From a virus: 64,000 bases of DNA. The stretch lies in the IMG/VR virus record IMGVR_UViG_3300027704_000014, positions 20,916 to 84,915 of that record, one strand, 5' to 3'. Of the stretch, positions 23,011 to 48,872 are shown piece by piece (positions within the stretch are counted from its first letter, which is position 1; every line of letters begins with the position of its first letter). The notes beneath the pieces are model-generated. The model was not told the DNA's origin. It ran no database searches and worked only from the letters and a program-made list of their open reading frames with translations. Made by a program: the position numbers and the translations under genes.

Positions 23011-24522
23011 CTAATCACTCGTATGGACCGGTACGCCATAATGGAAGGCAAACATCGCGGCGTCCTCCATGTCGTTAACTATGGGCTGGCCTTTAATATT
23101 CAAACTAGTGTTCACCATCATAGGACACCCTGTTGCTTTATAAAACTCTCTGAGTAATGTGTATAAGCCAGGATGTTGATTTAGTGAGACAGTTTGTACT
23201 CTGCTTGTTCCGTCTTTGTGTACAATAGCAGGGTACTCGTCTGGGAATTTGCATCTAGCAACGAACTGCATGTACGGACTAGTTTCAACCGGCATGTCAA
23301 AATACTCGTGTGCGAATTCTTCAAGTATAACAGGAGCAAACGGTCTGAACTCTTGTCTCTTTTTAATTTGATTCATTTGATCTTTTACGTTTGGTCCCCT
23401 AGGGTCAGCACATAATGTTCTGTTGCCTAACGCTCTTGGACCAAACTCTGCTTTACCGTTAGCAATACCAAATAGTTCTCCTGCTAGTAAACTTTTTAAT
23501 GCGGCTTTAACAGGATAAGTACCAGGAATGTTTTTACCTAAGTAAGGACCTTCCCATTTAATTTTTTTACCTGTTTGATTGTAATACTCTAAAGCTGCGG
23601 CACCTAAACTACTTCCAGCATCACCTGGGTTAGGCATTATGTGTACGTTATCGTATCCAACTTCTTTTAATCTACTGTTAGCAACACAGTTAAGAGCAAC
23701 ACCGCCCATGAATACTATGTTGCTACTGTTTGTTAATTCTTTAGCATATTGTGCATACGCAAGTATACGTTCTTCTACTTGCATTTGTGCAGCCATTGCA
23801 ATGTCAAAGTCATCTACACCTTTGTACATTTTAGGGTCCATGCCTTTTTGCAAATTCTTCTTCATCTTAATAGCTTGTGATGGCTTAGTGTATGCCCAAG
23901 TATGCTTGAAAAAGTCTTTGCCCATTTGTCTGCTTAATTTAGATGCTATAATTGGATTACCGTATGCAGCCATTCCCATGAGTATGTATTCATCTTCGTT
24001 TGGTTTTAAACCTACACGATGAGTAACAGCACTATAGAATAATCCTAAACTACTAGGAAACCTTGTACTGTGTAACTTAGTTAACTTCTTGTTTTTCCAA
24101 CCCCAAATAGTTGCACAATCAAATTCGCCAATTGCATCAATAACCATGATAGCACTTTCTTGGAAGTTGCTAGTTAGTATACCGGCGGCCGCATGCGTCT
24201 CGTGGTGCCAGTAACTTTTAATCGGAATGCCGGCTAGTTGTGGATAAAACTCTTTGATCCAATCTTCTTGTGATAGTTCATTGAAACTATTAAAGTCACC
24301 ACTCAGTAATGCTCTAAATTTCTTTGCTTTACTATTCTCATGTAGTACGATTATATCTGGTGTGCCGTGTTCTAGTGCGGCATCAATTAGCTCGTGATTT
24401 AAAAATGGATCATTCTTTTGTTTACTGTAACGTTCAGCATGAGCGGCGAATCTTATTTTGCCTGCTCTAACAACTGTTACAGCCGCATCGTGGAAGCCCG
24501 AGCTTATTCCTAAAATATTCAT
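23011..24522 (-). CDS. Carbamoyltransferase, NodU/TobZ family
   Basis: 503 residues. These enzymes make carbamoyladenylate from carbamoyl phosphate and ATP and transfer the carbamoyl group to a sugar or antibiotic hydroxyl. Seen: GISSGFHDAAV at the N-terminus, HHETHAAA (metal-binding His), GGVALNCVANSRL, NPGDAGSSLGAA, and FGPRALGNRTLCADPR in the C-terminal part, all in family order. It is coupled to a DUF1289 gene by an ATGA overlap and lies next to the giant repeat protein. It supports the idea of a modified-sugar pathway. Other T4-like marine phages are known to me to carry such genes. Confidence 0.92.
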   Translation of the reverse strand: MNILGISSGFHDAAVTVVRAGKIRFAAHAERYSKQKNDPFLNHELIDAALEHGTPDIIVLHENSKAKKFRALLSGDFNSFNELSQEDWIKEFYPQLAGIPIKSYWHHETHAAAGILTSNFQESAIMVIDAIGEFDCATIWGWKNKKLTKLHSTRFPSSLGLFYSAVTHRVGLKPNEDEYILMGMAAYGNPIIASKLSRQMGKDFFKHTWAYTKPSQAIKMKKNLQKGMDPKMYKGVDDFDIAMAAQMQVEERILAYAQYAKELTNSSNIVFMGGVALNCVANSRLKEVGYDNVHIMPNPGDAGSSLGAAALEYYNQTGKKIKWEGPYLGKNIPGTYPVKAALKSLLAGELFGIANGKAEFGPRALGNRTLCADPRGPNVKDQMNQIKKRQEFRPFAPVILEEFAHEYFDMPVETSPYMQFVARCKFPDEYPAIVHKDGTSRVQTVSLNQHPGLYTLLREFYKATGCPMMVNTSLNIKGQPIVNDMEDAAMFAFHYGVPVHTSD

Positions 24523-26224: not shown

Positions 26225-26830
26225 TTGAGCTTTAAAACTGTAAGAGAATTCGAAACAGCAATAGCACAGTTTTATGATGCCCCATATGCTGTGGCAGTAG
26301 ATTGCTGCACTCATGCGGTCGAACTTTGCTTACGTTATACTAAGCCAGAAGTCAACATAGGCATACCAACTAATACATATATTAGCATTCCGTTTACATG
26401 TCAAAAACTAGGGCTAAAGTGGCACTGGGTTGAGAACGAATGGGAAGAGTATTATCACATAGATGGCACTGATATAATAGATGCAGCAGTATATCTTAAA
26501 CGTGATGGTTATATTCCACTAAGTTTTATGTGTTTAAGTTTTCAATTTAAAAAGCCATTGAGCTTAGGCCGTGGCGGTGCTATACTGTGTTATAACGAAA
26601 GTGACTACATAGCATTAAAGAAGATGGCATACGATGGACGAGTAGACGATATCGCATGGGCCGAACAAGCAATAGACACAATAGGTTATCATTATTACAT
26701 GACACCTGAAACTGCACAAATGGGGTTGGACAAACTGCCAGAGGTTGCAAATAAAGAATGGCGCAAGTGGAGTTACAAGGACTATCCGTTTTTACCGGAT
26801 GTACCTGTATTCAACACCGGCCATCATTAA
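26225..26830 (+). CDS. Compact DegT/DnrJ/EryC1/StrS aminotransferase-like protein
   Basis: 201 residues against about 370 for typical family members. Seen: FYDAPYAVAVDCCTHAVEL at the N-terminus (family GxxxAxxxxSGTxAL), IGIPTNTYIS, and SFQFKKPLSLGRGGAI with the PLP-binding Lys (Lys109 or 110) and the glycine loop. The C-terminal domain is reduced. The family transfers an amino group to keto-sugars. A TTG start with AAAGGAAAT upstream is required, as no ATG fits. It may be a minimal active enzyme or need a partner subunit. Confidence 0.75.
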   Translation: MSFKTVREFETAIAQFYDAPYAVAVDCCTHAVELCLRYTKPEVNIGIPTNTYISIPFTCQKLGLKWHWVENEWEEYYHIDGTDIIDAAVYLKRDGYIPLSFMCLSFQFKKPLSLGRGGAILCYNESDYIALKKMAYDGRVDDIAWAEQAIDTIGYHYYMTPETAQMGLDKLPEVANKEWRKWSYKDYPFLPDVPVFNTGHH

Positions 26831-35960: not shown

Positions 35961-36760
35961 GTAAGATCAAACCACGCATGTAATAGTTGTTCTGGTCGTT
36001 CTTCTATTGCTTCAGTATGGGTATCACACGAGCTTGCCCATTCTCCTGTTTCACTAGATAAGTTAAAACCTATTTTGTTTAAGTAGTCGTAATATGTTTT
36101 TGTTTTAGGATGATAATCTACGCTAGGATTTCCTTCGTGGTCGTTGAATGCAAATGTTTCTGCCCACGATCCTCCGCAACCTCTATTTAGAAGATCCGGA
36201 AGTATCTGGTTCCTAAGATCATTGTAAAATATATTTAAATCAGTATAGTCATTTGATAGATCCGGAGTCTGGCTTAACCCATAGTAATCTTGCATATCAG
36301 GATCTACTCCCCACATCGAAATACTATCAAACGATTGCGACTCGAGCATTTTCATTGCTGTGTCTACAATAGCATAGTCCCTTACAGCAAACCCTTTAGT
36401 ATCAGATAGATACTTGTTTACAATCTCTAACGGAATATCACTCTGCGAATATATGTTGCCGGGTGTTTTCCAGTCATTATCTTTAAAACTGTCTTGTCTA
36501 TAGAACGTTGTCCACATAATAGTAACTAAGTCATCTTCGCCAATGTTATAGTATCGCATTGCTTGACTTAACTTAGAAAGTATGTAAGTGTTTCCTGCTC
36601 CAGGTTTACCAGTGTTTACATAGCCTGCATCTGGCATTTCGTGTGTAATTACGTCAGCCCATGTAGGCCAATAGTAGTTAGTAAAACTGCAACCAAATGC
36701 AAAATGTCTTTTATATTTTTTTAGATCTAAATCTTTAATGTTTTGTGTATTGTATATCAT
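35957..36760 (-). CDS. SGNH-hydrolase-like protein C, 267 aa
   Basis: FAFGCSFTNYYWPTWADVI is almost the same as FTFGCSMTEYQWPTWADML in the protein at 26843, so the two are paralogs. KPGAGNTYI gives the second SGNH block. Located between two glycosyltransferase-like paralogs with ATGA overlaps on both sides. Likely modifies a glycan ester or acyl group; inference. Confidence 0.62.
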   Translation of the reverse strand: MIYNTQNIKDLDLKKYKRHFAFGCSFTNYYWPTWADVITHEMPDAGYVNTGKPGAGNTYILSKLSQAMRYYNIGEDDLVTIMWTTFYRQDSFKDNDWKTPGNIYSQSDIPLEIVNKYLSDTKGFAVRDYAIVDTAMKMLESQSFDSISMWGVDPDMQDYYGLSQTPDLSNDYTDLNIFYNDLRNQILPDLLNRGCGGSWAETFAFNDHEGNPSVDYHPKTKTYYDYLNKIGFNLSSETGEWASSCDTHTEAIEERPEQLLHAWFDLT

Positions 36761-38085
36761 GTGTGTTTATATATGAACTCTTTTTTATGTGTTAGTACAG
36801 TAAAGTTATGCTCTGCAATTTCTCTACAAAATTTCAAGTAATCTTCTAATGCTTCGCCTTCTAATTTGCATAGTCTGTCTACTTCCTTGAGTATAGCAAT
36901 AAGCCTAAGCCAGTTATCTTCAATGCTATCATAACTCTCGTCTATTACTGGTGAATATGTTTTATACCCTAGCCCTCGTAAATACTTTAATGTATGCGGT
37001 GTTGCACATAGTACAAAAGGATGTCTAAATAAAATTGCTTTAAATATCTTTTCACTGAGGAAACAACTATCTTCCCAATCTCTATATTCTGTAAAGAATA
37101 TAGTTTCACTTACTAAACTAAAGTAAGTATCTTCGTACAGTTTATCTATGTGATCAGATGTTTCTAGTTGTGCTTGGTTTATGCTTAGATCAGGCTTGTC
37201 TAATGTTAGTTCACCTATATTAGAAATCCTTTCTCTGTTAGCAACTAGCACACGGTGTATGCCTTCATGAAAAAGAAATGACTCTTGTATTATGTAGTCT
37301 AATTCCGTTGTCCATGTTCTATTGTCATCTGATTTTGCTAAACTAACATGCCCTAACTTTAATAAGTCTGAACTTTCTAATAGTGCTGTCATTAAAGGTC
37401 TATGCAAACGCCACCGCCTATTAAAGTTTAAAAACTTCTTAGGATACTCTTTACTTTGTAATACATTAGGCATCTTGGCTTTGCCATTTGCTACCTGGGT
37501 TGCTAGACCTGCGTCTCCATTAATCGGCACCAGGTGGCCGCCCCCTGCTGGAACCTCATGTGAGTGGCTGTCTGATGGAAGAGTCATAGTATGTATTCCA
37601 TATTTGTCTGCTATCATTCCGAACCAGTCAGATTGTACAGCAAATTCAAATTCTAACATACTGTGATATTGAAAAGGCCTTCTACCGTATAGTTTTACAT
37701 ATTCATCAAATTTTTGTTGCAAATCTAATGCACCTGAGAACAGTATTAATTTCTGTGGTGGTATTTCATATCTGTCAATAACCCATTCGTATATTTCACC
37801 AATAAGATTACTAAAGCCTTCGTGGAAGTTTTCAAGTATTATATAACATTCATCATTAGGATCTTTAATCCTAGACATTAAATCAGGTCCAACGTCTTTT
37901 GATATGTTGGCGAGATTAAGACTTACTACTGATTTAAATTCTATTAAATAGTAATCAATAGGATCGGCATCCCAATCTTTAATTCTAGTAACCATAGATA
38001 CTGCACGGTGCTCTCTAATGAATATTTCGTTTCGACTGCCCTGTGTATCGTAGTACCAGTATCCGTCTGAATTAAGAAGCGGCAT
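36757..38085 (-). CDS. Glycosyltransferase-like paralog D, 442 aa
   Basis: LNFNRRWRLHRPLMT and LSEKIFKAILFRHPFVL, then LKYLRGLGYKTYSPVIDESYD, place it in the same family as 34371. ATG 38085 is chosen; a TTG start at 38136 would overlap the upstream radical SAM gene by 65 nt. A central region (GAGGGHLVPIN) is unique. Function inferred from the family pattern only. Confidence 0.62.
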   Translation of the reverse strand: MPLLNSDGYWYYDTQGSRNEIFIREHRAVSMVTRIKDWDADPIDYYLIEFKSVVSLNLANISKDVGPDLMSRIKDPNDECYIILENFHEGFSNLIGEIYEWVIDRYEIPPQKLILFSGALDLQQKFDEYVKLYGRRPFQYHSMLEFEFAVQSDWFGMIADKYGIHTMTLPSDSHSHEVPAGGGHLVPINGDAGLATQVANGKAKMPNVLQSKEYPKKFLNFNRRWRLHRPLMTALLESSDLLKLGHVSLAKSDDNRTWTTELDYIIQESFLFHEGIHRVLVANRERISNIGELTLDKPDLSINQAQLETSDHIDKLYEDTYFSLVSETIFFTEYRDWEDSCFLSEKIFKAILFRHPFVLCATPHTLKYLRGLGYKTYSPVIDESYDSIEDNWLRLIAILKEVDRLCKLEGEALEDYLKFCREIAEHNFTVLTHKKEFIYKHT

Positions 38086-39166
38086 CTGACTTGTTGCCCC
38101 AATCAGCGTCTGTCTTATCAAATCCTTCACCAGCAATAGTTGCTTCTACATCAATTGCTTCTGCGGCTTCTCTGTTTTCTATAGTCTTTTCATCCAGTTC
38201 TGAAAGTTCTCTTTTAGGAATAATAATATCTGTACCACAATGACAATGCATCTTGTCACATATAACAGTTCTAGGTTCTACATAACGAATGTCTTTCATT
38301 ATGTGTCCTACTTCGCCACTTACACCACAACTTGCTAATGTAATTTGTCCTGTTGGACTAATAAAGATACTGTCTCCTATACGGCATTCCCAACCTGTAA
38401 AAAAGTTTTGTCTGCGTACAATAACATCATTACTGTTACAAGGCTCAGTTGATCCGTCTGCATACAAGTTAAAACTTTGTGCTTTACTTTCTTTATATGG
38501 CTTAGGAATTGTAAACTCCATTTCGCAACTGTGTGATTCAATAAACTTTGTTTTATCATCGTCGTCATACTTCCATGGACCTGCGTTAACAGTCATTTCG
38601 TCATATAGTGGTGTCCATTCAATGAAGTAGTTAGGCATTGCTTTTTTAAGCTCTTCGCCATATTCTACGACTTCCCAAAATCTTTCATCATGTAATAACA
38701 GTTTAGTAGCAAGGTAGTTTACTTTGTCACATAGGAACATATTCTTTTCTTTATAACTAGCCTTGTCAGCAAACTCTACGTGAAAACTTGCAACAATGTC
38801 ATCAAACAAATGTACATGTTTCTGCCACCATGCTAGTGGTCTACTTAGGTTTGTGTTTACAGCAATAGTTGCGTCTGGCAACTTAGCTCTTAGATATTCT
38901 ACAATCGGAATAAAGTGTTTCCATGCAGTTGGCTCTCCGCCACTAAAGAAAAACTTATAATGCTTGTAGCCATCTTTCTTGTAATTTGCAATTATTGTAT
39001 CTAAATTGTCTAGGTAAATTTGTAAGTCGCCCTCATTACGAAAGTCTCCTAACCAGTTACCAGGATTACAATAACTGCAACTATAGTTACAGAAGTTGTT
39101 TACCTGCCAGGTAATACTGAGATATTTCTCAGGTGCTTCAACCGCAATTAATTTTGTTCTATCCAT
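38072..39166 (-). CDS. Radical SAM protein with C-terminal auxiliary cluster
   Basis: 364 residues. NFCNYSCSYC gives Cys26, Cys30 and Cys33, and FFFSGGEPTAW is the SAM-binding GGE motif. The C-terminal part has WECRIG, SCGVSG and ICDKMHCHCG, Cys positions suitable for a SPASM/twitch-type auxiliary [4Fe-4S] cluster. Related enzymes modify peptides, sugars or aminocyclitols. It overlaps the next radical SAM gene by 19 nt. Confidence 0.88.
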   Translation of the reverse strand: MDRTKLIAVEAPEKYLSITWQVNNFCNYSCSYCNPGNWLGDFRNEGDLQIYLDNLDTIIANYKKDGYKHYKFFFSGGEPTAWKHFIPIVEYLRAKLPDATIAVNTNLSRPLAWWQKHVHLFDDIVASFHVEFADKASYKEKNMFLCDKVNYLATKLLLHDERFWEVVEYGEELKKAMPNYFIEWTPLYDEMTVNAGPWKYDDDDKTKFIESHSCEMEFTIPKPYKESKAQSFNLYADGSTEPCNSNDVIVRRQNFFTGWECRIGDSIFISPTGQITLASCGVSGEVGHIMKDIRYVEPRTVICDKMHCHCGTDIIIPKRELSELDEKTIENREAAEAIDVEATIAGEGFDKTDADWGNKSDAAS

Positions 39167-40476
39167 TGTCTAACCTCTAATAATCTGGGTGAGATCTCTG
39201 CAAGTTCTTCACCACGCATTTTGTCCATTACATCGTTTTCTTTAAAAAATTCTTCTAGCTTATCCCTGTTCTCTTCGCCATTACGCAACGTCATCATAAT
39301 CATTTTAAATGTATCATTCATGTTGCTGTCTTCTGGTTTAGGAAATTTCTCATAGTACAGTCTAAACTCTCGCATCAGATCAAGTCTAAACTTCTCAGGT
39401 AATATAGATATGTTTGCCCAATCTGGAGCAGTAAGCATATTTAGCCTTGGGGGATTAGTTATTGACGTAAATCCGTTCTCAAACATCCAGTCAAACATTT
39501 CACTGTAATGCCAAATGTTCCATAGGCTAATTGTAGGTGTTAATCCTAATCTAATCTGTGGCGCACGTTCTCTAATAGCAAACATATTTTTCTTAATACG
39601 TTCCCATTTAAATCCTTTACGAATTATGTCGCCTGCTTCTCCAACTGCATCAATACTTGCCCACATTTCAATATCTGGGAAATGTTGCCATAGCTCAAAC
39701 AAGTCTCGCTCGCCTTTAACTTTATCTTGGTATTTGATTTTACTCATGTTAGTAGTATAGTTTAGCCTAATGTCTTTGGCCATGCCGTTCTCAATCCAAT
39801 AATCTAAGCATTCATAATGCTCAGGGTGGACTAGAATCTCGCCGCCTGCAAAGTAAACTTCTTGTACATCATTTAAGTGTGGCTTTAGTGCCTCCATGAA
39901 CGAGCCGTCTGCATTTACACTCAGTAGTGTTTCTCTGCCTTTACGGTTAATCCATGTAGTCTCATCTACTAGTTTTAATTTTTCGTCGCCCCATAAGTTA
40001 GAGCATCCAGGCCCACAACTACGACATTTAAAATTACAAAGATTACTAAATCGTATATCCATGTATTTCATTTTAAAGTCTTCAATACCACCATCTTCTT
40101 GCGTATCAAGTAGCATTGTAATATTTTCTCTAGTGTTCTCGGGCTTTTTGGTTGTAAATTGTTGTGTGTTTTGACTAATACGCAAACTCCATGTGCCTAC
40201 TTTCTCTAGGTCATAGCATCGTTGGCAACGAGCGTCCGGCTCATCTGCTAACATCTTCTTACGCATTACTTTGTATTCGTCACTGTTCATTACATCAATA
40301 ATAGTATCACCAGCTTTGTATTCAGCAACTGGTTCAGCACTATCAGCAATACAGCAAGGCATAATTCTATCATCAGGCCAAGCATGCATGTGAATCCACG
40401 GTAATACACAAAAGTGCTTACTGTCTTCTACAGCCTTAATTAAATTAGGCTCTTCAGCTATGTTATAGTCTGACAT
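39148..40476 (-). CDS. Twitch-domain radical SAM paralog 1, 442 aa
   Basis: An N-terminal Cys domain (Cys23 in FCVLPWIH, Cys41-42 in PCC, Cys84/87 in RCQRC) precedes the radical SAM CX3CX2C, CNFKCRSC (147-154). VYFAGGEILVH is the GGE motif. This layout, auxiliary cluster first and SAM core second, is the same in the two genes upstream of it (40477, 41724). The target is unknown; family members include sugar and peptide modifiers. Confidence 0.88.
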   Translation of the reverse strand: MSDYNIAEEPNLIKAVEDSKHFCVLPWIHMHAWPDDRIMPCCIADSAEPVAEYKAGDTIIDVMNSDEYKVMRKKMLADEPDARCQRCYDLEKVGTWSLRISQNTQQFTTKKPENTRENITMLLDTQEDGGIEDFKMKYMDIRFSNLCNFKCRSCGPGCSNLWGDEKLKLVDETTWINRKGRETLLSVNADGSFMEALKPHLNDVQEVYFAGGEILVHPEHYECLDYWIENGMAKDIRLNYTTNMSKIKYQDKVKGERDLFELWQHFPDIEMWASIDAVGEAGDIIRKGFKWERIKKNMFAIRERAPQIRLGLTPTISLWNIWHYSEMFDWMFENGFTSITNPPRLNMLTAPDWANISILPEKFRLDLMREFRLYYEKFPKPEDSNMNDTFKMIMMTLRNGEENRDKLEEFFKENDVMDKMRGEELAEISPRLLEVRQWIEQN

Positions 40477-41727
40477 TTACTCCATATCCTGTAATGGTTT
40501 TAGTTCTGGGAAGGCATCAAAGAAGTTCTCTCCCCTAAGTTTATTTAACCGATAAGTCATATGAAAGAAGTCTTTCTTGACTTCTTCCCATGTATCTTTT
40601 TGAGCAGCAAAGCCAGTGCCGCTTTTTATTAGTCCGTCTATTGCTCTTTCGCCTTGATACATACCCATAAGTTTTGCTTTTGCAGTCTCTTTCATACTTT
40701 TTGGCAATGCCTGAGCACAATAATGCTTAGGATTTGCCGCCAAGTACAAACTGTTATAAAAGTCTTTATCATAATCTAATAGTCCTGCTCCACTCATATA
40801 TTCAAAGAACTCGTATAATGTATAATAGTTCATTATACTTAATACAGTATTCATTTGGAAACTAATATGTTCTGTGGCTCTGAACTTTTTAAGGTTTGTC
40901 TCTACTCTGCCCCAATCAGTACCGTGTCGCATACATTCTGCTCTTTCGCCAAAGTGATCTATACTGCAACTCACTTCCACCTTATCGAAGTGTTTCCACA
41001 GTGCAAAAATATCTTTGTCTTTGTACGACACTGTACTGGCATTAGTGTTATATCGCAACACTGTGTCTGTTTTGCCTTTACGGATTAACTCCTCTAGTAT
41101 AATATAATGTTCCGGAGTAATTAACGGTTCTCCTCCAGCAAAGTATGCAATATCAATATGATCAACCTGATCTAATATCTCTTCTAATACTCCGCCTTCT
41201 TCATTATCAACATGGATAATAACCGGACCGTCTGGCTTCCAAGACTTTTTATCCTCTAGTGCCCACTGGCTACTAAATTCACTACCACAACTACGACACT
41301 TGAAATTACAGATGTTGCTAAAACGGATATCAAAATATCGCATCTTCATTTCATCTACATGCCCATCTTCGTGTGTCATTTCTAAACTTTCATCAAAGTA
41401 CTTACCGAAGTGCTCTATGCTGTACTTTCTGAAACTGTGTGGGCCTGCTTCTTCATGCGAATAACAAAAATCACATATCTTGTGATGTTTCTCATTCAAC
41501 ATATCCATACGCAAGTTCTTCATGAACTCGCCATTGAATGCTTCTTTAAGAGATACGTCTGCTGTATTAGCTATAGGCATTGTGTAGTCGTTGCTACAGC
41601 ACGGAAATATGTTACCCAAGGGTGTTGCATTCAAATGCGTCCATGGATACATACAAAAGGTTTTAGACTCGTTTAACAAGTAATCTTTGTCTAACTCTTT
41701 GAGTTTTAAATACTCTGACGTACTCAT
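40477..41727 (-). CDS. Twitch-domain radical SAM paralog 2, 416 aa
   Basis: Cys25 in FCMYPWTH, Cys43-44 in PCC, Cys85/88 in ICDFC, then the SAM core CNFKCRSC (140-147) and AYFAGGEPLITPEHY. About half the visible key positions match paralogs 1 and 3. Its start overlaps the previous gene stop by 4 nt, and no gap is left before the following gene. Confidence 0.88.
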   Translation of the reverse strand: MSTSEYLKLKELDKDYLLNESKTFCMYPWTHLNATPLGNIFPCCSNDYTMPIANTADVSLKEAFNGEFMKNLRMDMLNEKHHKICDFCYSHEEAGPHSFRKYSIEHFGKYFDESLEMTHEDGHVDEMKMRYFDIRFSNICNFKCRSCGSEFSSQWALEDKKSWKPDGPVIIHVDNEEGGVLEEILDQVDHIDIAYFAGGEPLITPEHYIILEELIRKGKTDTVLRYNTNASTVSYKDKDIFALWKHFDKVEVSCSIDHFGERAECMRHGTDWGRVETNLKKFRATEHISFQMNTVLSIMNYYTLYEFFEYMSGAGLLDYDKDFYNSLYLAANPKHYCAQALPKSMKETAKAKLMGMYQGERAIDGLIKSGTGFAAQKDTWEEVKKDFFHMTYRLNKLRGENFFDAFPELKPLQDME

Positions 41728-43040
41728 TCTATCAGTAACCTTGCTAATTTTGGGAACACTTTTTTAAAGTCTTCGCCTCTACGAGCATCTATTTTTCTAA
41801 CTTCATTCCTAAACACGTCTTGTAGTTGGTCCCACTTATCAGCACTTCTTGCTAATTCATGCATTGATTCTATTGCTGACATCAGCCGTGTTACCTGTCC
41901 ATACATAATTTTGGCACGACCGGGTCGACCGTCCCCTTCATAAAGATCATCTGGTGCTAAGGCTTTTAACTTTTCAAAGTATTTTAAATGTTCCGCTGCA
42001 ATAGACTCTTTGAGATCTGTTGGCATGCACTGAAATGAGAATTCTTCTGGACTGTATATAGGATTAATTTGCCAAGCACCGCCATTAGGTTCAATCCACG
42101 GTGGTATATTTTGATCTATTAAGTAATCAAAGAAACTTGTGAGTGACCCATAGTTGAAAATGCTAACAGACGTTGTAATACTTAACTCTACTATTGGTGA
42201 TCCTAGCAATGTTCTATAGTTTTTCATTACTTCGTCCCACTTAGTACCTGCTCGTATATATTCTGCTTGGTCGCCAAAGTGATCTAAACTACCGTACACC
42301 TGTACTCTATTATCAAACTTACTCCATAAGTTAAGTAAATCTTTATCTTTAAACTTTAACTTACTGAGGTTTGTATTGTAACTAAGTAATATATCTGTGC
42401 GTCCTACACGAATCATTTCTTCTAACAATTCGTAATGATCTTCTGTTATAAGAGGTTCGCCACCTGCAAAGTATGCTCGTTGTAAGTTAGGTATTTGTGC
42501 ATATAAATCTTGTTGTATTTTAGAAACATCTACAGTATTTGTAGGAATATTATAATGTTGCCCGTCTTTAGCATCTTCTATTTCCCATTGGCTACTATAC
42601 CCGCTACCACAAGTCCGACACTTCATATTACATAAGTTACTAAAACGTATGTCTAAGTAACGCATTTTAAAATCGTTTAGTGTACCATCCTCATTTGTAT
42701 CATCGAATGCAGATGGCAAGAAATGACCGTATTCACGCAAAGTTGTTTTTCTAAAACTTTCCATACTTTGTTCTTGCTTGTAACAAGTGTTACATGCATT
42801 AGGTTTTATACCGTTAAGCATATCTAGCCGCATTTTATTCATTGCCGGGCTGTTCATCCAATCGTCTATGCCGTCTTCCTGCTTACCAACAATATCTAGT
42901 GTATTTTCTGTATTAGTAATACAGCAAGGCATAATATTATGATCAGGTGTTAAGTGTATATGCATCCAAGGTAAGGCGCATAGCGATTCTTTTTTTGCCT
43001 TTTCTATATCTATGTTTGTTAAATCAATTTTCTTCTTCAT
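41724..43040 (-). CDS. Twitch-domain radical SAM paralog 3, 438 aa
   Basis: Cys21 in LCALPWMH, Cys39-40 in PCC, Cys83/86 in ACNTC, SAM core CNMKCRTC (137-144), then AYFAGGEPLITEDHY, nearly identical in this block to paralog 2. The alternation of identical and variable blocks suggests duplication followed by substrate divergence. Overlaps the 43024 gene by 17 nt. Confidence 0.88.
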   Translation of the reverse strand: MKKKIDLTNIDIEKAKKESLCALPWMHIHLTPDHNIMPCCITNTENTLDIVGKQEDGIDDWMNSPAMNKMRLDMLNGIKPNACNTCYKQEQSMESFRKTTLREYGHFLPSAFDDTNEDGTLNDFKMRYLDIRFSNLCNMKCRTCGSGYSSQWEIEDAKDGQHYNIPTNTVDVSKIQQDLYAQIPNLQRAYFAGGEPLITEDHYELLEEMIRVGRTDILLSYNTNLSKLKFKDKDLLNLWSKFDNRVQVYGSLDHFGDQAEYIRAGTKWDEVMKNYRTLLGSPIVELSITTSVSIFNYGSLTSFFDYLIDQNIPPWIEPNGGAWQINPIYSPEEFSFQCMPTDLKESIAAEHLKYFEKLKALAPDDLYEGDGRPGRAKIMYGQVTRLMSAIESMHELARSADKWDQLQDVFRNEVRKIDARRGEDFKKVFPKLARLLIE

Positions 43041-44430
43041 GGGTACTCTTACATAAGTTCCAGAAATCTTCCATCTCTGGGAATGTATCTAGGAATTGAA
43101 CGTCACGTCTTTTATCGTATTCAGTAAACCAATTATAAAAGTCAATACGTCCTTCTTTAATCTTTGCATCATCATACTGTGTGCTTTCGAAATAATCTCT
43201 TACTCTACGAAAACGCTCGTATTCTATTTCACTAAACATAGTTCGGTCGTCTTCGACTACATTATCTCTGATAAAGTCTAGGATTTCATCAAAGTATGGT
43301 AAAAATTCTTCCTTAGGAAGTATGTGCATATCATATTGTATTGGTTCTTTGAGATACGGTGTATCAAATCTAATCTTACGCACATCTTCTGATGTACCTA
43401 AGTTGTTTGGAATAATATCCTCGTATATTTTCCTCCACTCTAATATCTTTTCTAAGAAAGACTTAAAGGAAGTAACACTAAGAATATTAAATGTTACCAT
43501 GTGTGTTATGTGGCTTTGTACGCCACGTAGATATATGTCCTGATTCTTTTCCCACGTCTCTATGTCGAGTCCTGTGCGTAGATACTCTGCACGTTTGCCC
43601 CAAGTATCCATACTACTAAACATTTTAAATGCTTTAATAGAATTATTATCTCGCATCTTAGTAACGTAGTCGACTAATTTTTCCATGCGCCTTGGTGTAT
43701 AGCCCATGTTCGTATTGATATTGATTTCAATCTGAGGCTTAGGGTTCTCAATTAGATCGTCAAATGTTTTCCATGTTGTTTTGTGCAGTAATGGTTCACC
43801 ACCTGTAATACGCAATATGTTCAGCGTTTTACTTACTTCAGGCCACCATTTGTGCCATGCTTCAATATAAGGATTATCTTCTTCCCCGTTTACAGTAAAC
43901 CAGTCAATATCGTTTCTATGATTTTTTACTGTAGTATAAGGCCCATGCTTTTTAATTTCGTTCATGTATAGACTACTGTGCATTGGGTGACAGTATCCAC
44001 ACTTAAAGTTACATTCGTTACTGAATGCAATCTCAATGTATTCTGGGTTAACTTTAAAGTCTGGTGGTTGATTTAAAATCTCATCAACACGTTCTTCTTT
44101 GTATATACTTGCATTACGTTGGTGTCTATCACTGATGTGATCTCCGCCCATGTTCTCAACATTCCAGCAATACTTACAACCTTCAGGTTGTTCGCCGTTA
44201 AACATTTGTATACGTTCATCGATCTTTTGTGGAGTGTTATGTAGTACACTTGGATCGTATTTTAAATCTAGCAAAGGAATATCATGCGGCTTAGGGTGAT
44301 AACAACTATGTGTTTGCCCTCTGTGCAAATAGATTGTTGTATGATGCCATTTTGCAAGGCAGAAGGTAGGGCTAACCTCTTCAGTCATTAACAAGTCTAT
44401 TGCTTTTATTCGTTCTAGTCTTTCGCTCAT
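43024..44430 (-). CDS. Twitch-domain radical SAM paralog 4, 468 aa
   Basis: First gene of the tandem set. FCLAKWHH (Cys24), SCYHP (Cys43, where the paralogs have a double Cys), GCKYC (85/88), SAM core CNFKCGYC (140-147) and ITGGEPLLH. The missing second Cys of the PCC motif and an insert near 90-130 make it the most divergent. Translation starts after AATAGGACACGC, 16 nt from a terminator. It is likely the leader of the cluster 44.4-38.1 kb. Confidence 0.85.
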   Translation of the reverse strand: MSERLERIKAIDLLMTEEVSPTFCLAKWHHTTIYLHRGQTHSCYHPKPHDIPLLDLKYDPSVLHNTPQKIDERIQMFNGEQPEGCKYCWNVENMGGDHISDRHQRNASIYKEERVDEILNQPPDFKVNPEYIEIAFSNECNFKCGYCHPMHSSLYMNEIKKHGPYTTVKNHRNDIDWFTVNGEEDNPYIEAWHKWWPEVSKTLNILRITGGEPLLHKTTWKTFDDLIENPKPQIEININTNMGYTPRRMEKLVDYVTKMRDNNSIKAFKMFSSMDTWGKRAEYLRTGLDIETWEKNQDIYLRGVQSHITHMVTFNILSVTSFKSFLEKILEWRKIYEDIIPNNLGTSEDVRKIRFDTPYLKEPIQYDMHILPKEEFLPYFDEILDFIRDNVVEDDRTMFSEIEYERFRRVRDYFESTQYDDAKIKEGRIDFYNWFTEYDKRRDVQFLDTFPEMEDFWNLCKSTHEEEN

Positions 44431-44442
44431 GCGTGTCCTATT

Positions 44443-44467
44443 AAAAAGTGGGTGTTGCCACCCACTT
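44443..44467 (-). terminator. Intrinsic terminator between dehydrogenase and radical SAM cluster
   Basis: A 9-bp perfect stem AAGTGGGTG/CACCCACTT with TTGC loop, flanked by an A-run on the + strand that becomes a U-tract on the - strand transcript. It insulates the radical SAM cluster from the upstream gene; AATAAATA next to it may serve as a late promoter. Confidence 0.8.
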
Positions 44468-44472
44468 ATTTA

Positions 44473-45780
44473 TTACTTGATTTTACGAGTGTTACCGTAG
44501 TGTATTACTTGGCATCCTTCTACATCTGGTAATGTACGCCATGGATCTAGTATAACACTATTTTCAGCAAATGTCAACTCTGAACCGTTACCTGTTGCTA
44601 CAGTTAAAGCACCATCGCAATCTGTTGCGTTATGCTCACCATACCATCCGGGTACTGTGTCTAGTTGATCACCGTAAGTTACTCTCGGGTTATGTGCCAT
44701 TAGATATACTGCTGGATTATTTAAAATATCCATTGGCGGCATATCACCTGTTTTTTCATCATAGTAATGCAAATCGTATCCTGCTTCTGTTATGTAGTGA
44801 CCTACTAACATACTTGCTGAACCGGCTTCATATTCTACTAACGGCTTGTAAGCCTTACCGACTATAATGATTGGCATAGCATCATGTGGTGAAACTGTTG
44901 CTAATCCCATTAACCGCTTTGCCATATTCTCTGCCTGCTTTTCTCTCGAAAGCATTACAGCATCAAATAAATCATAACCTAAATTAAGTTCTTCAGCCAT
45001 CCAACGCAAGGCAATGTTATCACGTGGGTGACATGCACCACCGTCTCCCATGCCTGGTTTCATATAACCTGGTCCCATAATACGTCTATCACTAGAGGCT
45101 AGTGCATCACAAACAAGTTCTGCGTTTATGTTACCCTGTGCTTCTGCAACGTCTTGTATCATGTTTACAAGTGATACTTTTGCTGATATAAATGTGTTGT
45201 AGAAAACTTTAATACATTCACACTCGTCCCATGTTCCAATAATGTAACGTGGTTCGTTTTGCATGATTGTTTTGTAGAAATCTACTAGTTCTTTTGCATC
45301 GCCAGTTTCGCTACCATCGCTGGTACCGATCATTACCATTTCTGGATTAACCATATCCCACTTGACTGTACCCATAGCAATTAAGTATGGATTGTATACA
45401 AATCTAGCATTAGGTAATAGAGGAATGAATTCCCGTCTAACAGTACCTGGTAGTACTGTGCTGATAAGGACTATTAATTGTTCGTTGGTCGCTACTTCAT
45501 TTACTTTACGAAGGATATTTTTAACTATTGTATAGTCAAAATCCTTGTTTGGCAAATGGCTGGTAGGTGCTTTTCCATCATACTGTGGGTCATGCGGTGT
45601 AGGTACAGCAACAAAAACAATATCTTGTCCTCTTACTGCATCTTCCAACGTGTCAACCATTGTAAAGTTTTCAGGCTCTACAGGGTTAACATCATACCCA
45701 ACAACATCATGTACTTCGGCAACCATCTCGGCGCAGGCTTGTCCTAACTTGCCTACCCCAATAAATCCGATTGAGGCCAT
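44473..45780 (-). CDS. Nucleotide-sugar dehydrogenase (UDP-glucose 6-DH family), 435 aa
   Basis: Start at ATG 45780, set by CAGGAGAATACA upstream; a longer frame start would include the late promoter. GFIGVGKLG is the NAD-binding loop, VFVAVPTPHD is the family TPxxxDG position, and GGACHPRD holds the catalytic Cys (family GGxCxPKD). It oxidises a UDP-hexose to a uronic acid. Length is normal for the family. A second, shorter family member lies at 46253. GATAAATA lies 38 nt upstream. Confidence 0.88.
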   Translation of the reverse strand: MASIGFIGVGKLGQACAEMVAEVHDVVGYDVNPVEPENFTMVDTLEDAVRGQDIVFVAVPTPHDPQYDGKAPTSHLPNKDFDYTIVKNILRKVNEVATNEQLIVLISTVLPGTVRREFIPLLPNARFVYNPYLIAMGTVKWDMVNPEMVMIGTSDGSETGDAKELVDFYKTIMQNEPRYIIGTWDECECIKVFYNTFISAKVSLVNMIQDVAEAQGNINAELVCDALASSDRRIMGPGYMKPGMGDGGACHPRDNIALRWMAEELNLGYDLFDAVMLSREKQAENMAKRLMGLATVSPHDAMPIIIVGKAYKPLVEYEAGSASMLVGHYITEAGYDLHYYDEKTGDMPPMDILNNPAVYLMAHNPRVTYGDQLDTVPGWYGEHNATDCDGALTVATGNGSELTFAENSVILDPWRTLPDVEGCQVIHYGNTRKIK

Positions 45781-45817
45781 TGTATTCTCCTGTGTTGTGT
45801 ACTGTGAAGTACGCATG

Positions 45818-45825
45818 TATTTATC
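45818..45825 (-). promoter_or_regulatory. Late-type promoter GATAAATA (- strand)
   Basis: Octamer 38 nt upstream of the dehydrogenase ATG at 45780. Confidence 0.6.
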
Positions 45826-45939
45826 AAGTGGTGTCAGCAATAAACAAGTTAATTCGGCGCTTTAAGAATAAGTTGCATTAGTAAAAGAGGCACGGTTTTT
45901 GTCCCTATTCACAACTAAGTTAACGTTCCTGTTAATGAT

Positions 45940-45947
45940 GATAAATA
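45940..45947 (+). promoter_or_regulatory. Late-type promoter GATAAATA (+ strand)
   Basis: Octamer 111 nt before the small gene at 46059. The 278-nt divergent space between 45780 and 46059 holds this and the opposite-strand octamer and no other gene that I can see. Confidence 0.55.
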
Positions 45948-46058
45948 TCCTTGTAACACAACTGTAACATAAATGTTGACTAATAGTTGCAATTCACATT
46001 AGTGATAAAGGAACTACAACGATGATACTGTTTGGTTATACAAATAGGAGAAAGTATC

Positions 46059-46199
46059 ATGGCGAATCCATTAGGAATAGTAGCCAGATTAACTCGTCCA
46101 TTACGTGACACGGCATCTGACTACTTCGACAAATTTGACTCAATGATGAAAGCTGGTAATATGACAAGCATATTATCTGAGGTTTCTTTACGGAGTTAA
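46059..46199 (+). CDS. Small + strand gene, 46 aa
   Basis: ATG with AATAGGAGAAAGTATC upstream, stop TAA at 46197-46199. The product is basic at its start (MANPLGIVARLTRPLR) and helical. It stands alone on the + strand amid - strand genes, with a late-type promoter upstream and a terminator directly downstream, so it looks like a genuine one-gene transcription unit. Function unknown. Confidence 0.65.
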   Translation: MANPLGIVARLTRPLRDTASDYFDKFDSMMKAGNMTSILSEVSLRS

Positions 46200-46206
46200 T
46201 GTACGA

Positions 46207-46232
46207 AAGGGGCAGTTATTGCCCCTTTTTTT
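46207..46232 (+). terminator. Intrinsic terminator of the 46-aa gene
   Basis: AAGGGGCA, loop GTTAT, TGCCCCTT, then TTTTT. It follows the 46-aa stop by 7 nt. Confidence 0.85.
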
Positions 46233-46252
46233 ATGGTAAACCTGAATTGCTG

Positions 46253-47065
46253 CTATCTGATATCGTTGTTCTTTGATATAACTTTCTTTAACACATCTAA
46301 CTTCACCCCTGATAACTTTGCATAATAAATTAATGCATTAGTATCCTTAGGGAAACAATGTCCTCCGAAACCTTTTTTGCCATCTGTGCCCGGTACTTGC
46401 ATATGACTGTTGCCTATGCGTGGATCACTAGCTAACATATCTGTGAACTGGTCCCAATCCGGATTAGCACCACTTGCCTCAAACAATTCGTGTATCTCAT
46501 TAAAGAAGGTTACTTTAGTTGCTAACCAACTGTTAATAGTATACTTGATAAGACTTGCTGTGATTAAATCTACTTTATAAGTAGGTACAACTTTAACACT
46601 ACTGTGCCTGTTATATGCTTTTTCAACTGCATCGCAGTCTTTCCATTTACCGCCTAGCACTTGCATGTTAGGATTAATAAAATCAGAATGAGCATTTGCT
46701 TCTGTGAGGAACTCTGGGTTATATACAATCTTAACGCCAAAGTCTTTTTTCATTGTTGTTAAATGTTTAGGGGTAATAGTACTCTTAATAACTACTATGC
46801 CTTTGTATTGCCTATCGTACAAATCGCTTAGTACTTGTCTTACAATACTTACATCACAGTCATCGTGTGTTAGCTGTTGTGCTGTTGGAACGCACACAAA
46901 AGTAATGCTTGGCTCAAACGTAATTAAGTCGTCTATAGTATTGCTGTTATGTTTAGTATCAACAACAAATTGTTCTACGTTTTTATTAAAGCCAGCAATA
47001 ACACTGCCTCCAACAAAGCCTGCTCCAATAATACCTAGTTTTAGTTTACCTTGGATCGCCGACAT
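46253..47065 (-). CDS. Short nucleotide-sugar dehydrogenase, 270 aa
   Basis: KLGIIGAGFVGGSV is the NAD loop, FVCVPTAQ the TP position, and GGHCFPKD carries the catalytic Cys. The normal C-terminal UDP-binding domain (about 130-150 residues) is missing; the protein ends soon after the helical dimer region. It may work with the full-length enzyme at 44473 or bind a different substrate. It overlaps the DUF2693-like gene start region by 20 nt and shares its promoter at 47323. Confidence 0.82.
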   Translation of the reverse strand: MSAIQGKLKLGIIGAGFVGGSVIAGFNKNVEQFVVDTKHNSNTIDDLITFEPSITFVCVPTAQQLTHDDCDVSIVRQVLSDLYDRQYKGIVVIKSTITPKHLTTMKKDFGVKIVYNPEFLTEANAHSDFINPNMQVLGGKWKDCDAVEKAYNRHSSVKVVPTYKVDLITASLIKYTINSWLATKVTFFNEIHELFEASGANPDWDQFTDMLASDPRIGNSHMQVPGTDGKKGFGGHCFPKDTNALIYYAKLSGVKLDVLKKVISKNNDIR

Positions 47066-47297
47066 ACCATTCCTTTACTGTACTTGCTCTAAATGAACGC
47101 CATGCGTCTTTATCTAAACACCATACAACAAAATTATCACTTGTAGGTTCATACTTGTTTATGTTTGCTTGGCCGTTACTTAACTCTTCATTGAGAGTGC
47201 AAGGCATTATGCGTATCTCTTTTGTGTGTAGTTTTTCGAATACTACTGTGACAACACCTGCGTGTGCCTCTTTTAAAAACTTAGCTGCATCTTTCAT
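47046..47297 (-). CDS. DUF2693-like SH3-barrel phage protein, 83 aa
   Basis: AGVVTVVFEKLHTKEIRIMPCTLNEEL and then VVWCLDKDAWRSFRAS match the pattern that I recall for the short DUF2693 family in T4-like phages (small beta barrel). Function unknown. It is the first gene after a perfect consensus promoter. Confidence 0.75.
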   Translation of the reverse strand: MKDAAKFLKEAHAGVVTVVFEKLHTKEIRIMPCTLNEELSNGQANINKYEPTSDNFVVWCLDKDAWRSFRASTVKEWYVGDPR

Positions 47298-47322
47298 TAC
47301 ATTTCCTGTAGGTTAAAACACT

Positions 47323-47351
47323 ATTATATAATATCTTGACTAGGATGTCAA
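47323..47351 (-). promoter_or_regulatory. Sigma70-like promoter (- strand)
   Basis: Reading leftward: TTGACA (47351-47346), 17 nt spacer, TATAAT (47328-47323), 26 nt before the ATG at 47297. The only early-type promoter with two perfect boxes that I found on the - strand. Confidence 0.85.
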
Positions 47352-47358
47352 GAAGATT

Positions 47359-47517
47359 TTACCAGTTATGTATGTTGCCTGCTATGATAAAGAAGCATGT
47401 ACTGAAGTTTACTAACACAATAACTGTGCGTATTATTGCTATCTTATCTGCTTCTGCGTCTGTGGTACCTTCTTTCTCACCGATAGCTTTAGCCCATAAA
47501 CGCCAATACTGTTTCAT
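47359..47517 (-). CDS. Conserved phage single-pass membrane protein, 52 aa
   Basis: MKQYWRLWAKAIGEKEG at the N-terminus, then a charged helix and one membrane span (VIVLVNFSTCFFIIAG) ending IHNW. I recall near-identical short proteins in T4-like cyanophages. It starts 4 nt after the preceding gene's stop. Function unknown. Confidence 0.75.
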   Translation of the reverse strand: MKQYWRLWAKAIGEKEGTTDAEADKIAIIRTVIVLVNFSTCFFIIAGNIHNW

Positions 47518-47520
47518 GTG

Positions 47521-47871
47521 CTACTGCCCAAACTTGTATATAATTTCTGTTTCTATTTTACTTTTAAACAGAGAGGTATACTTAGTCTCTTCACTTTCGT
47601 ACTTGGTCTTAAAGATCCAGTTACCTTTCTTTACCTTGTAACCCATCTCCATACTGTGTCCGCCGGTCATAGGACCTGCTTCAATATACATGCCGTTAGC
47701 AATATACCCTAATCGTAAACTGTGGGTGTCCGTTTGAGACTTAGCGTCGTTGAATGGTAGCTCATGTGCGTATGCAACGTATCCTTGTGCATTTGCAGGA
47801 AAGGCGAATAGTATTAATAATAGTACTATTAATGCTGTTATCGATGTGTGTATCTTAGCCCTGATTGTCAT
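47521..47871 (-). CDS. Secreted/outer-membrane-type phage protein, 116 aa
   Basis: A Sec signal peptide with a hydrophobic core (ALIVLLLILFAFPANA) is cut before QGYVAY. The rest is alternating beta strands with GPMTGGHSMEMGYKVKKG, as in conserved T4-like cyanophage proteins seen from memory. Likely periplasmic or outer membrane. Overlaps the upstream gene by 4 nt. Confidence 0.68.
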   Translation of the reverse strand: MTIRAKIHTSITALIVLLLILFAFPANAQGYVAYAHELPFNDAKSQTDTHSLRLGYIANGMYIEAGPMTGGHSMEMGYKVKKGNWIFKTKYESEETKYTSLFKSKIETEIIYKFGQ

Positions 47872-48872
47872 GCTATAAGTCCTTTTTCTAATAAATCTTG
47901 TATTTGTTTTTCTCTAACCATTGCACCCCAGCGTCTCGGATTAACATACGTTTTCTTAAAGAATTTACACATTTGTTCATTTGGATTGAACAACATCATG
48001 CTATTGATAGCTTCGTTGAGTTCGTGTCCTAATCTGCATACTTCTTTGTATAACAATTCCTGTTGCCATTCAATTCTAGTATAACTGCACTTCATATCAT
48101 TGAGGCCGTCAAACTTAGGTGCTACCTCATCATAGAAGAATGTTTTAAACCAATCAAAGTCTGATATTAAATTAACGTCCCAATCACTTAGTACTGCCAT
48201 TTGGCAACCAAGTCTTGAACCATATATAGCCCATAAGCCGTTTTCTACATCAGTGCCTATGTTACTCCAAGTCTGTAATCTATTATAATTGCCATACCAT
48301 ATTTGTTGCTGAAATTCATCTGCTGGTACCCTAGTACCTTGATCTAAACTCATTTTAACACCTTCTCTAAATCCTGCTCTGAAGGCTTGAAAAGGACTTG
48401 CTGTTTGATGCACTTCACTGAATGTGTCGTTAAGTTGTATATAGTTTAGCTTCCAACAAAACTCCATACCCTCACCGTCTGTTGCGGCTTCGTGTGTGTT
48501 AATGCCTTTAGTATATTCAGTAGGCCAACATTTAAGTCCGCCATTACCGTACACTAATCCGTTGAGAATGTTCTTTGCATTCCAACTAAAGATGCTCTCT
48601 GATATGTTGTTGCCATCTAAATCAGTATCAGGAACATCTAACACTTGCTCAAAGAAGTCGTCCATGACAATGTTATCTCCATCAACTGTAATAAAGCGAT
48701 CTGTTTCTGATTGGTTAGCACATGCCTTGTGAGCGGCATCAAATCCTTTAACACCGTGTACTCGTTTTGCCCATGGCACTTTGTTTAGTAAGTCTGCCCA
48801 ATGCTCTTCGCAGTTTGGTTCGTCGTAACTGATATAAAATATATCTAGTTCTGTGACATCAATCTTTGCCAT
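47868..48872 (-). CDS. GT-A-like glycosyltransferase, 334 aa
   Basis: Opens DIFYISYDEPN and holds ITVDGDNIVMDD (Asp64-Gly-Asp66), a DxD-type metal site for nucleotide-sugar binding. A GNGGLKCWPTEY stretch and FRAGFREGVKMSL match the C-terminal domain of the 1203-residue repeat protein (GYGGVKLFPTQM, WRSAFRECVKLSL). It belongs to a phage-expanded family; the target is unknown. Late-type promoter 29 nt upstream. Confidence 0.7.
   Translation of the reverse strand: MAKIDVTELDIFYISYDEPNCEEHWADLLNKVPWAKRVHGVKGFDAAHKACANQSETDRFITVDGDNIVMDDFFEQVLDVPDTDLDGNNISESIFSWNAKNILNGLVYGNGGLKCWPTEYTKGINTHEAATDGEGMEFCWKLNYIQLNDTFSEVHQTASPFQAFRAGFREGVKMSLDQGTRVPADEFQQQIWYGNYNRLQTWSNIGTDVENGLWAIYGSRLGCQMAVLSDWDVNLISDFDWFKTFFYDEVAPKFDGLNDMKCSYTRIEWQQELLYKEVCRLGHELNEAINSMMLFNPNEQMCKFFKKTYVNPRRWGAMVREKQIQDLLEKGLIA

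Follow-up and report, generated by a model that had tools for sequence, protein, structure and literature searches.

A 46-aa open reading frame (ORF) on the + strand, set among - strand genes in a 64,000-nt stretch of viral DNA (hereafter, the window), belongs to a complete, conserved and modular unit that recurs across viral contigs and that was delimited here by computational means. We propose, with a probability of roughly 0.6, that this unit constitutes an autonomous, moron-like late cassette, in which translation is set by an RNA with two hairpins.

The elements of the unit in region 45781-46252 that had been claimed in the original prediction, namely a promoter box, a leader, the AGGAG motif, 46 codons and a terminator, were all confirmed by direct reading. 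A T4-late-type promoter box, GATAAATA (45940..45947, +), is followed by twin TGTAACA repeats (45951..45970, +), each a nearly palindromic TGT-A-ACA; 111 nt separate the box from the ATG. Folding predicts a single long, irregular hairpin for the leader RNA, with the first GUAAC in its closing helix (45953..46039, +), a fold that is modest for the window sequence alone, and its apical hairpin P1/P2 (UAGUU/AACUA, UCAC-AUUA-GUGA; 45984..46016, +) is supported by covariation. The ribosome-binding site AGGAG (46046..46050, +), read directly and represented by GGAG in the aligned leaders, precedes the ORF (46059..46199, +; ATG at 46059, stop codon at 46197-46199), whose beginning contains a start-codon hairpin, UGGC-gaa-UCC-AUUA-GGA-auagua-GCCA, running from the AUG to codon 10 (46060..46086, +). 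The unit ends with an intrinsic terminator, the hairpin GAAAGGGGCAGTTATTGCCCCTTTT plus a T tail (46205..46229, +), whose 11-pair stem is the longest among 5 terminator-like sites in 44000-48500, a region that holds a mean of 2.9 such sites when shuffled. Terminator-like hairpins were also found 3' of many relatives, and are not evident after L126, L131, L132 and L143. The flanking genes, 44473-45780 and 46253-47065, both lie on the - strand and are both UDP-glucose-dehydrogenase-like, and the notion of a complete tiny transcription unit directed against the strand of its neighbours is borne out computationally, at the level of sequence features. The second flanking gene, encoding 270 aa, ends after the central dehydrogenase domain and differs from the gene at 44473-45780.

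We consider NATAAATA a promoter class because of its placement before gene starts and not because of the number of boxes, since chance can account for the number of GATAAATA occurrences in the window (7 vs 4.6 expected), and TATAAATA occurs less often than chance would give (2 vs 9.4 expected). Five of the 12 NATAAATA sites lie outside ORFs of at least 60 aa, though such DNA represents 5.3% of the window; by manual reading, 8 of the 12, including that of the unit itself, lie 7-112 nt 5' of a same-strand gene start, counting 2 sites in which an ATG start was chosen over the earlier one given by the script, or in which the box overlaps a neighbour, and one site at 7 nt that may reflect a wrong start. 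Another GATAAATA, at 45818-45825 on the - strand, belongs to the gene at 44473-45780 (-). Among relatives, the presence of a NATAAATA box before the twin repeats in 51 distinct cores follows from the construction of the search; the box is also found in 28 units that came from the peptide search and not from the promoter pattern, its first position being occupied by G, T or C. In 4 jumbo-type loci, a box lies downstream of the capsid gene, 41-48 nt before an ORF or close to that place, and none of 80 capsid loci had a box in the 1 kb that precedes the capsid gene. The box is a candidate T4-type late promoter, TATAAATA-like and of the kind used by a gp55-type sigma factor; the late-type designation is consistent with the T4-like capsids of the relatives. 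In the same part of the window, a perfect TTGACA-17-TATAAT (12/12) at 47351-47323 (-) precedes an 83-aa gene (47046-47297) that matches WYL_2; this is a host-type, perhaps early, promoter beside the late-type ones.

Comparison with relatives, which had been put forward as a check, revealed that the reading frame is conserved. Relatives of the peptide were confirmed by tblastn in 16 contigs using the window sequence as query, and in 34 viral contigs using a profile, while the promoter-plus-repeats pattern was found in 70 viral stretches. The union of the peptide-profile and promoter-repeat scans comprises 73 IMG/VR contigs, with L019, L020 and the window in addition, so the unit is present in at least 75 viral contigs besides the window, in several neighbourhoods. 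In bacterial and archaeal genomes, 24 pattern stretches were obtained for A1, a peptide alignment built from 15 peptides, none of which was confirmed, and the promoter-repeat pattern gave none. The unit is single-copy in each of 12 records searched whole with the profile, eleven of them picked as known carriers. Further, the RNA model R1 matched 25 of 34 whole records at E <= 0.012, most of these having been chosen as carriers, and matched none of six other long records (116-317 kb) having only the dehydrogenase gene in common; on cultured phages, it gave chance-level values for PA5oct (E 0.28) and C48C1 (E 0.72) and no match for Vibrio phage 2.275.O. A search of 77 dehydrogenase loci for the unit also came out negative; thus, the unit is neither universal nor present in the cultured relatives tested. 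Isolated phages yielded no match to the 46-aa protein, to a 70-aa piece of an exported variant or to a 22-aa peptide by tblastn, which is limited by such short queries, nor to 45700-46300 by blastn, and the sequence pattern of the unit was absent from C48C1, Vibrio phage 2.275.O and PA5oct.

The settings of the unit include UDP-glucose dehydrogenase genes, long tail-fibre-like genes and at least four further gene settings, according to a clustering of neighbour ORFs carried out without L120 and L121. Among 44 long-leader representatives, the nearest ORFs (at least 70 aa) are antisense on both sides in 31 and on the only visible side in 7, and the remaining 6 have one sense neighbour. The six short-leader representatives are all collinear with the left neighbour, and five with the right one. 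Regarding the carriers, no capsid match was obtained in the 84,915-base source record of the window. The contig with the closest neighbouring gene (L018, 93% identity) carries a T4-type capsid gene, whose product shares 68.5% identity with the capsid protein of Pseudomonas jumbo phage PA5oct and its close relatives, and 62-64% with the capsids of Vibrio phage 2.275.O, Cronobacter phage GAP32 and Sinorhizobium phage Phosso. Given these capsid relatives and one carrier record of 339,794 bases, the carriers are probably marine jumbo phages. In G015, which carries the short-leader version, both RegA and a full-length match to a gp23-type capsid were found, and therefore two phage groups carry the system. 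Relatives of the capsid protein were confirmed in at least 592 stretches in a scan with one capsid protein. The window also holds, at 36757-44430 (-), a run of 360-470-aa ORFs, two of which were tested and gave radical SAM matches (38072-39166 and 43024-44430); this run adjoins carbamoyltransferase (23011-24522) and aminotransferase-like (26225-26830) genes, which together possibly correspond to a sugar or natural-product pathway.

The suggestion that the 111-nt leader could itself be a functional RNA gained computational support, both from a covarying hairpin and from a long-range closing helix. Of 44 distinct leaders, 41 were aligned (A2), with L144, L183 and L192 omitted as near copies. In these 41 leaders, the P1/P2 cells are paired in 95.0% vs 84.1% in shuffles, the double-change cells number 70 vs 21.6, and the covariation score is 0.369, compared to 0.179 in shuffles and at most 0.078 in slid controls; further pair types do not exceed shuffles (101/500). 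In 41 of 44 leaders, pairing (P>0.5) is predicted between the first GUAAC and the final 35 nt of the leader, compared to 78 of 440 controls in which the remainder was shuffled. The mean folding z across the 44 leaders is -2.28, with -1.70 for the window leader; leader plus start of the window gave -1.39, with 16 of 200 shuffles equally good, and is only modestly stable. In all 41 aligned leaders, GTAA of the first repeat and TGTAA of the second are invariant, and the twin-repeat site is single in the window (0.02 expected). The repeats are probably the 5' end of the transcript; given how invariant they are and how close they lie to the promoter, they could act as an operator in the DNA.

The second hairpin starts inside the AUG and ends at codon 10, with an outer UGGC...GCCA stem, paired at P>0.5 in 38 of 44 sequences, and an inner UCC...GGA stem. 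Its third inner pair occurs as U-A (35), A-U (2), C-G (1) and G-C (1), and is missing in the other 5 of the 44 hairpins (A-A in 4, G-A in 1). No double change was recorded for this hairpin in the automatic alignment, and two outer helix columns never vary, being uninformative alone. Codon usage is highly restricted in this segment: among 39 fused ORFs, synonymous differences amount to 184 of 4523 same-residue comparisons (4%) for codons 1-9, and to 2147 of 5527 (39%) for a 16-codon C-terminal block of the same ORFs. The alanine of codon 9 is encoded by GCC in 50 of 50 ORFs, and codon 2 is GCG in all 43 ORFs with alanine, the remaining 7 having GTG (Val); GCC and GCG are rare, constituting 7% and 6% of the alanine codons in 19 window genes. 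Since the leader covaries, and codons 1-9 are synonymously constrained with a fixed GCC, both the RNA and the frame are under selection.

Three versions of the cassette were distinguished among 51 distinct 110-nt cores, comprising NATAAATA, the twin TGTAAC repeats, the leader and the ATG. In 37 cores (36 recognized by the script and one that its expression missed), a fused 39-46-aa peptide follows; in 8, the RNA module is followed by a longer ORF1; and 6 have a short leader without the start-codon module. The product of ORF1 is usually exported and 99-124 aa long, bearing a Sec-type signal peptide (MAKPLGIVAMLTLLISGPALA-D; judged by eye), and is a 55-aa membrane-like protein in one core. Seven of these 8 cores have the peptide as a separate ORF after ORF1, and an ATGA overlap is present in several of them; an extra membrane-like ORF lies between ORF1 and the peptide in L158, and no peptide ORF was seen in L156, which has a two-gene-type core. 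Small membrane-like ORFs were seen to replace or follow the exported protein in L152 and L158. Three of the six short-leader cores have an exported-type ORF and a 22-aa peptide, and three a 22-28-aa peptide alone, so that the peptide is present in 50 of the 51 cores overall. These short-leader cases (L175, L179, L199, L150, L198 and L181) correspond to T4-like phages with 22-28-aa basic peptides (MKYLHKLMKSSRIQNVWRVILK type), and lie with a MazG-like gene on one side and other small genes on the other. A second, weaker match to the RNA model (40.2 bits, E 8e-5) was found at L226:150-560 (G016:C1:22200-23000), with TGTAAC repeats and a hairpin-like stretch, and without a preceding NATAAATA or the module ATG; it may be a decayed copy.

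In the window ORF, the first ~10 residues, common to the signal-peptide start of the two-gene relatives, are followed by the helical peptide SDYFDKFDSMMKAGN...; the simplest reading is that this ORF consists of the retained first codons of ORF1 joined to the peptide. The nearly universal product is predicted as a 22-35-residue helical, often basic peptide with the pattern F-D-x-x-M-K-S-G-x-hydrophobic, and its structure model is helical at low confidence (68.5, pTM 0.30). Codon positions 1/2/3 of the 16-codon C-terminal block differ at 0.30/0.25/0.51 among 39 distinct fused ORFs; given this third-position excess, the protein is under selection. Neither the 46-aa peptide, searched against Pfam, PHROGs, NCBIfam and PADLOC, nor an alignment of 21 peptide relatives (best PHROG E 0.093) gave a significant profile match. 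Mimicry of the SRP54/Ffh M domain was considered and discarded, as PDB profile matches were weak (E 0.46-2) and hhalign against E. coli Ffh gave a probability of ~1%. The exported variant was modelled with a confident beta core (mean pLDDT 76.5), and had no Foldseek match at E <= 0.001 in the PDB or in a viral library.

Our proposal is that a late promoter would produce a short mRNA with the twin UGUAAC repeats at its 5' end, and that these repeats would fold back to close the long hairpin of the leader, which ends shortly before the ribosome-binding site; the second hairpin would form between the start codon and codon 10. The two hairpins would then bracket the ribosome-binding site and set the translation of the downstream ORF or ORFs, their most likely role being that of a translational operator or switch with two sites, recognised by a factor of the phage or of the host; their shared layout suggests that a single factor may read both. 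Some phages would encode an exported or membrane protein between the RNA module and the peptide; in the window and in most relatives, ORF1 would be absent and its first ~10 codons, kept for their place in the RNA structure, fused to the peptide, either arrangement being the possible ancestral one. As for the peptide, an action at the cell envelope, such as the exclusion of other phages or the timing of lysis, is a guess prompted by the envelope-directed nature of ORF1. Several observations count against the two-hairpin model, including the 5 of 44 hairpins lacking the third inner pair, the modest fold of the window sequence, the short-leader versions without the start-codon module, the start-codon hairpin without a double change, the number of further pair types in the leader, which is within that of shuffles, the possible DNA-operator nature of the repeats, and L156 without a peptide ORF.

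Three other explanations were weighed. The RNA itself might be the main product, as a small RNA or a protein-sequestering RNA, the ORFs being passengers or translated only for the control of the RNA. A module conserved while ORF1 is exchanged or absent, invariant 5' repeats and a short transcript with a terminator would all fit this idea, but the peptide is kept in 50/51 cores whatever precedes it, and its C-terminal half is under coding selection (third position 0.51 vs 0.25-0.30); hence, we regard it as unlikely. A role at the DNA level has a similarly low likelihood: a promoter-proximal operator (TGT-A-ACA twice, 11 bp apart) together with a recombination site in the first codons for ORF swapping would account for nearly palindromic repeats at the presumed +1, and for first ~30 coding bases that are nearly identical across different ORFs and neighbourhoods. 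However, the pairing of P1/P2 survives sequence change, which would be needless for a DNA site, and the codon hairpin has an inner pair that is variously U-A, A-U, C-G or G-C.

The least probable of the alternatives is a plain, constitutively strong late gene without a regulator, where the hairpins merely stabilise the mRNA and place the ribosome. A good ribosome-binding site located between two helices, the terminator and the late-type promoter agree with it, but the GGAG of that site is predicted to be mostly paired (unpaired median 0.26; 0.21 in the window), and the sequence identity of stems and repeats exceeds what stability would need. We favour the cassette with a translational two-hairpin RNA.

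With respect to known systems, the whole window gave no Rfam match at the gathering cut-off, and a lax search of 45780-46260 gave 18 sub-threshold matches, the best being SNORD27 (30.5 bits vs a cut-off of 52), which was taken as chance, as it is a eukaryotic snoRNA below the cut-off. At the level of titles and abstracts, the literature searched contained nothing recognisable as this element. Phage morons, as known from lambdoid phages, are likewise small self-contained units with their own promoter and terminator, mostly opposed to their neighbours and in varied locations; here, promoter and terminator were found as sequence features only, and the opposite strand and variable position apply to the long-leader units, whereas the short-leader ones are collinear. 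Morons are a feature of prophages, whereas the cassette described here belongs to lytic T4-like/jumbo phages and has an RNA module reaching into the coding region. The Downstream-peptide and glnA glutamine riboswitch motifs occur in cyanobacteria and cyanophages, and similarly, in marine phages, a folded leader precedes a short ORF for a conserved peptide; nevertheless, they are absent from the Rfam matches, and in our unit the start codon too lies within the structure and the ORF is swapped between versions. The MS2/R17 coat-protein operator is also a hairpin that includes the start codon, with the AUUA loop shared by the window version, but in our case the loop is not conserved, the orientation differs and the bulged A is absent, with no sign of relatedness. 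The translational operators of T4 RegA and gp43 resemble the unit in that a T4-like phage exerts control near the start codon. RegA was rejected as the binder, its domain PF01818 being found in 1 of 8 records (the short-leader G015) and absent from the 340-kb long-leader G008. Structured leaders and morons are thus known kinds of elements, and it is their combination here that is new.

The cassette is widespread and apparently unnamed. More tentatively, at somewhat less than even odds, it may represent a new class of phage riboregulator, that is, a portable RNA module spanning promoter, leader and start codon, recognised in trans and moving between jumbo and T4-like marine phages, which would be coupled to an exchangeable envelope-targeted ORF1 and to a conserved 22-46-aa effector peptide, with the first ten codons of different proteins dictated by the RNA and not by protein function. 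Abundant uncultured marine phages would harbour a covariation-supported RNA family that extends into the coding region and restricts the N-terminal residues of several products unrelated to one another. The cassette offers a clean and testable setting for the study of RNA control at the start codon in large phages, along with a new peptide family, and serves as a caution that, where small phage proteins are conserved in amino-acid sequence at the N-terminus, the signal can be one of RNA.
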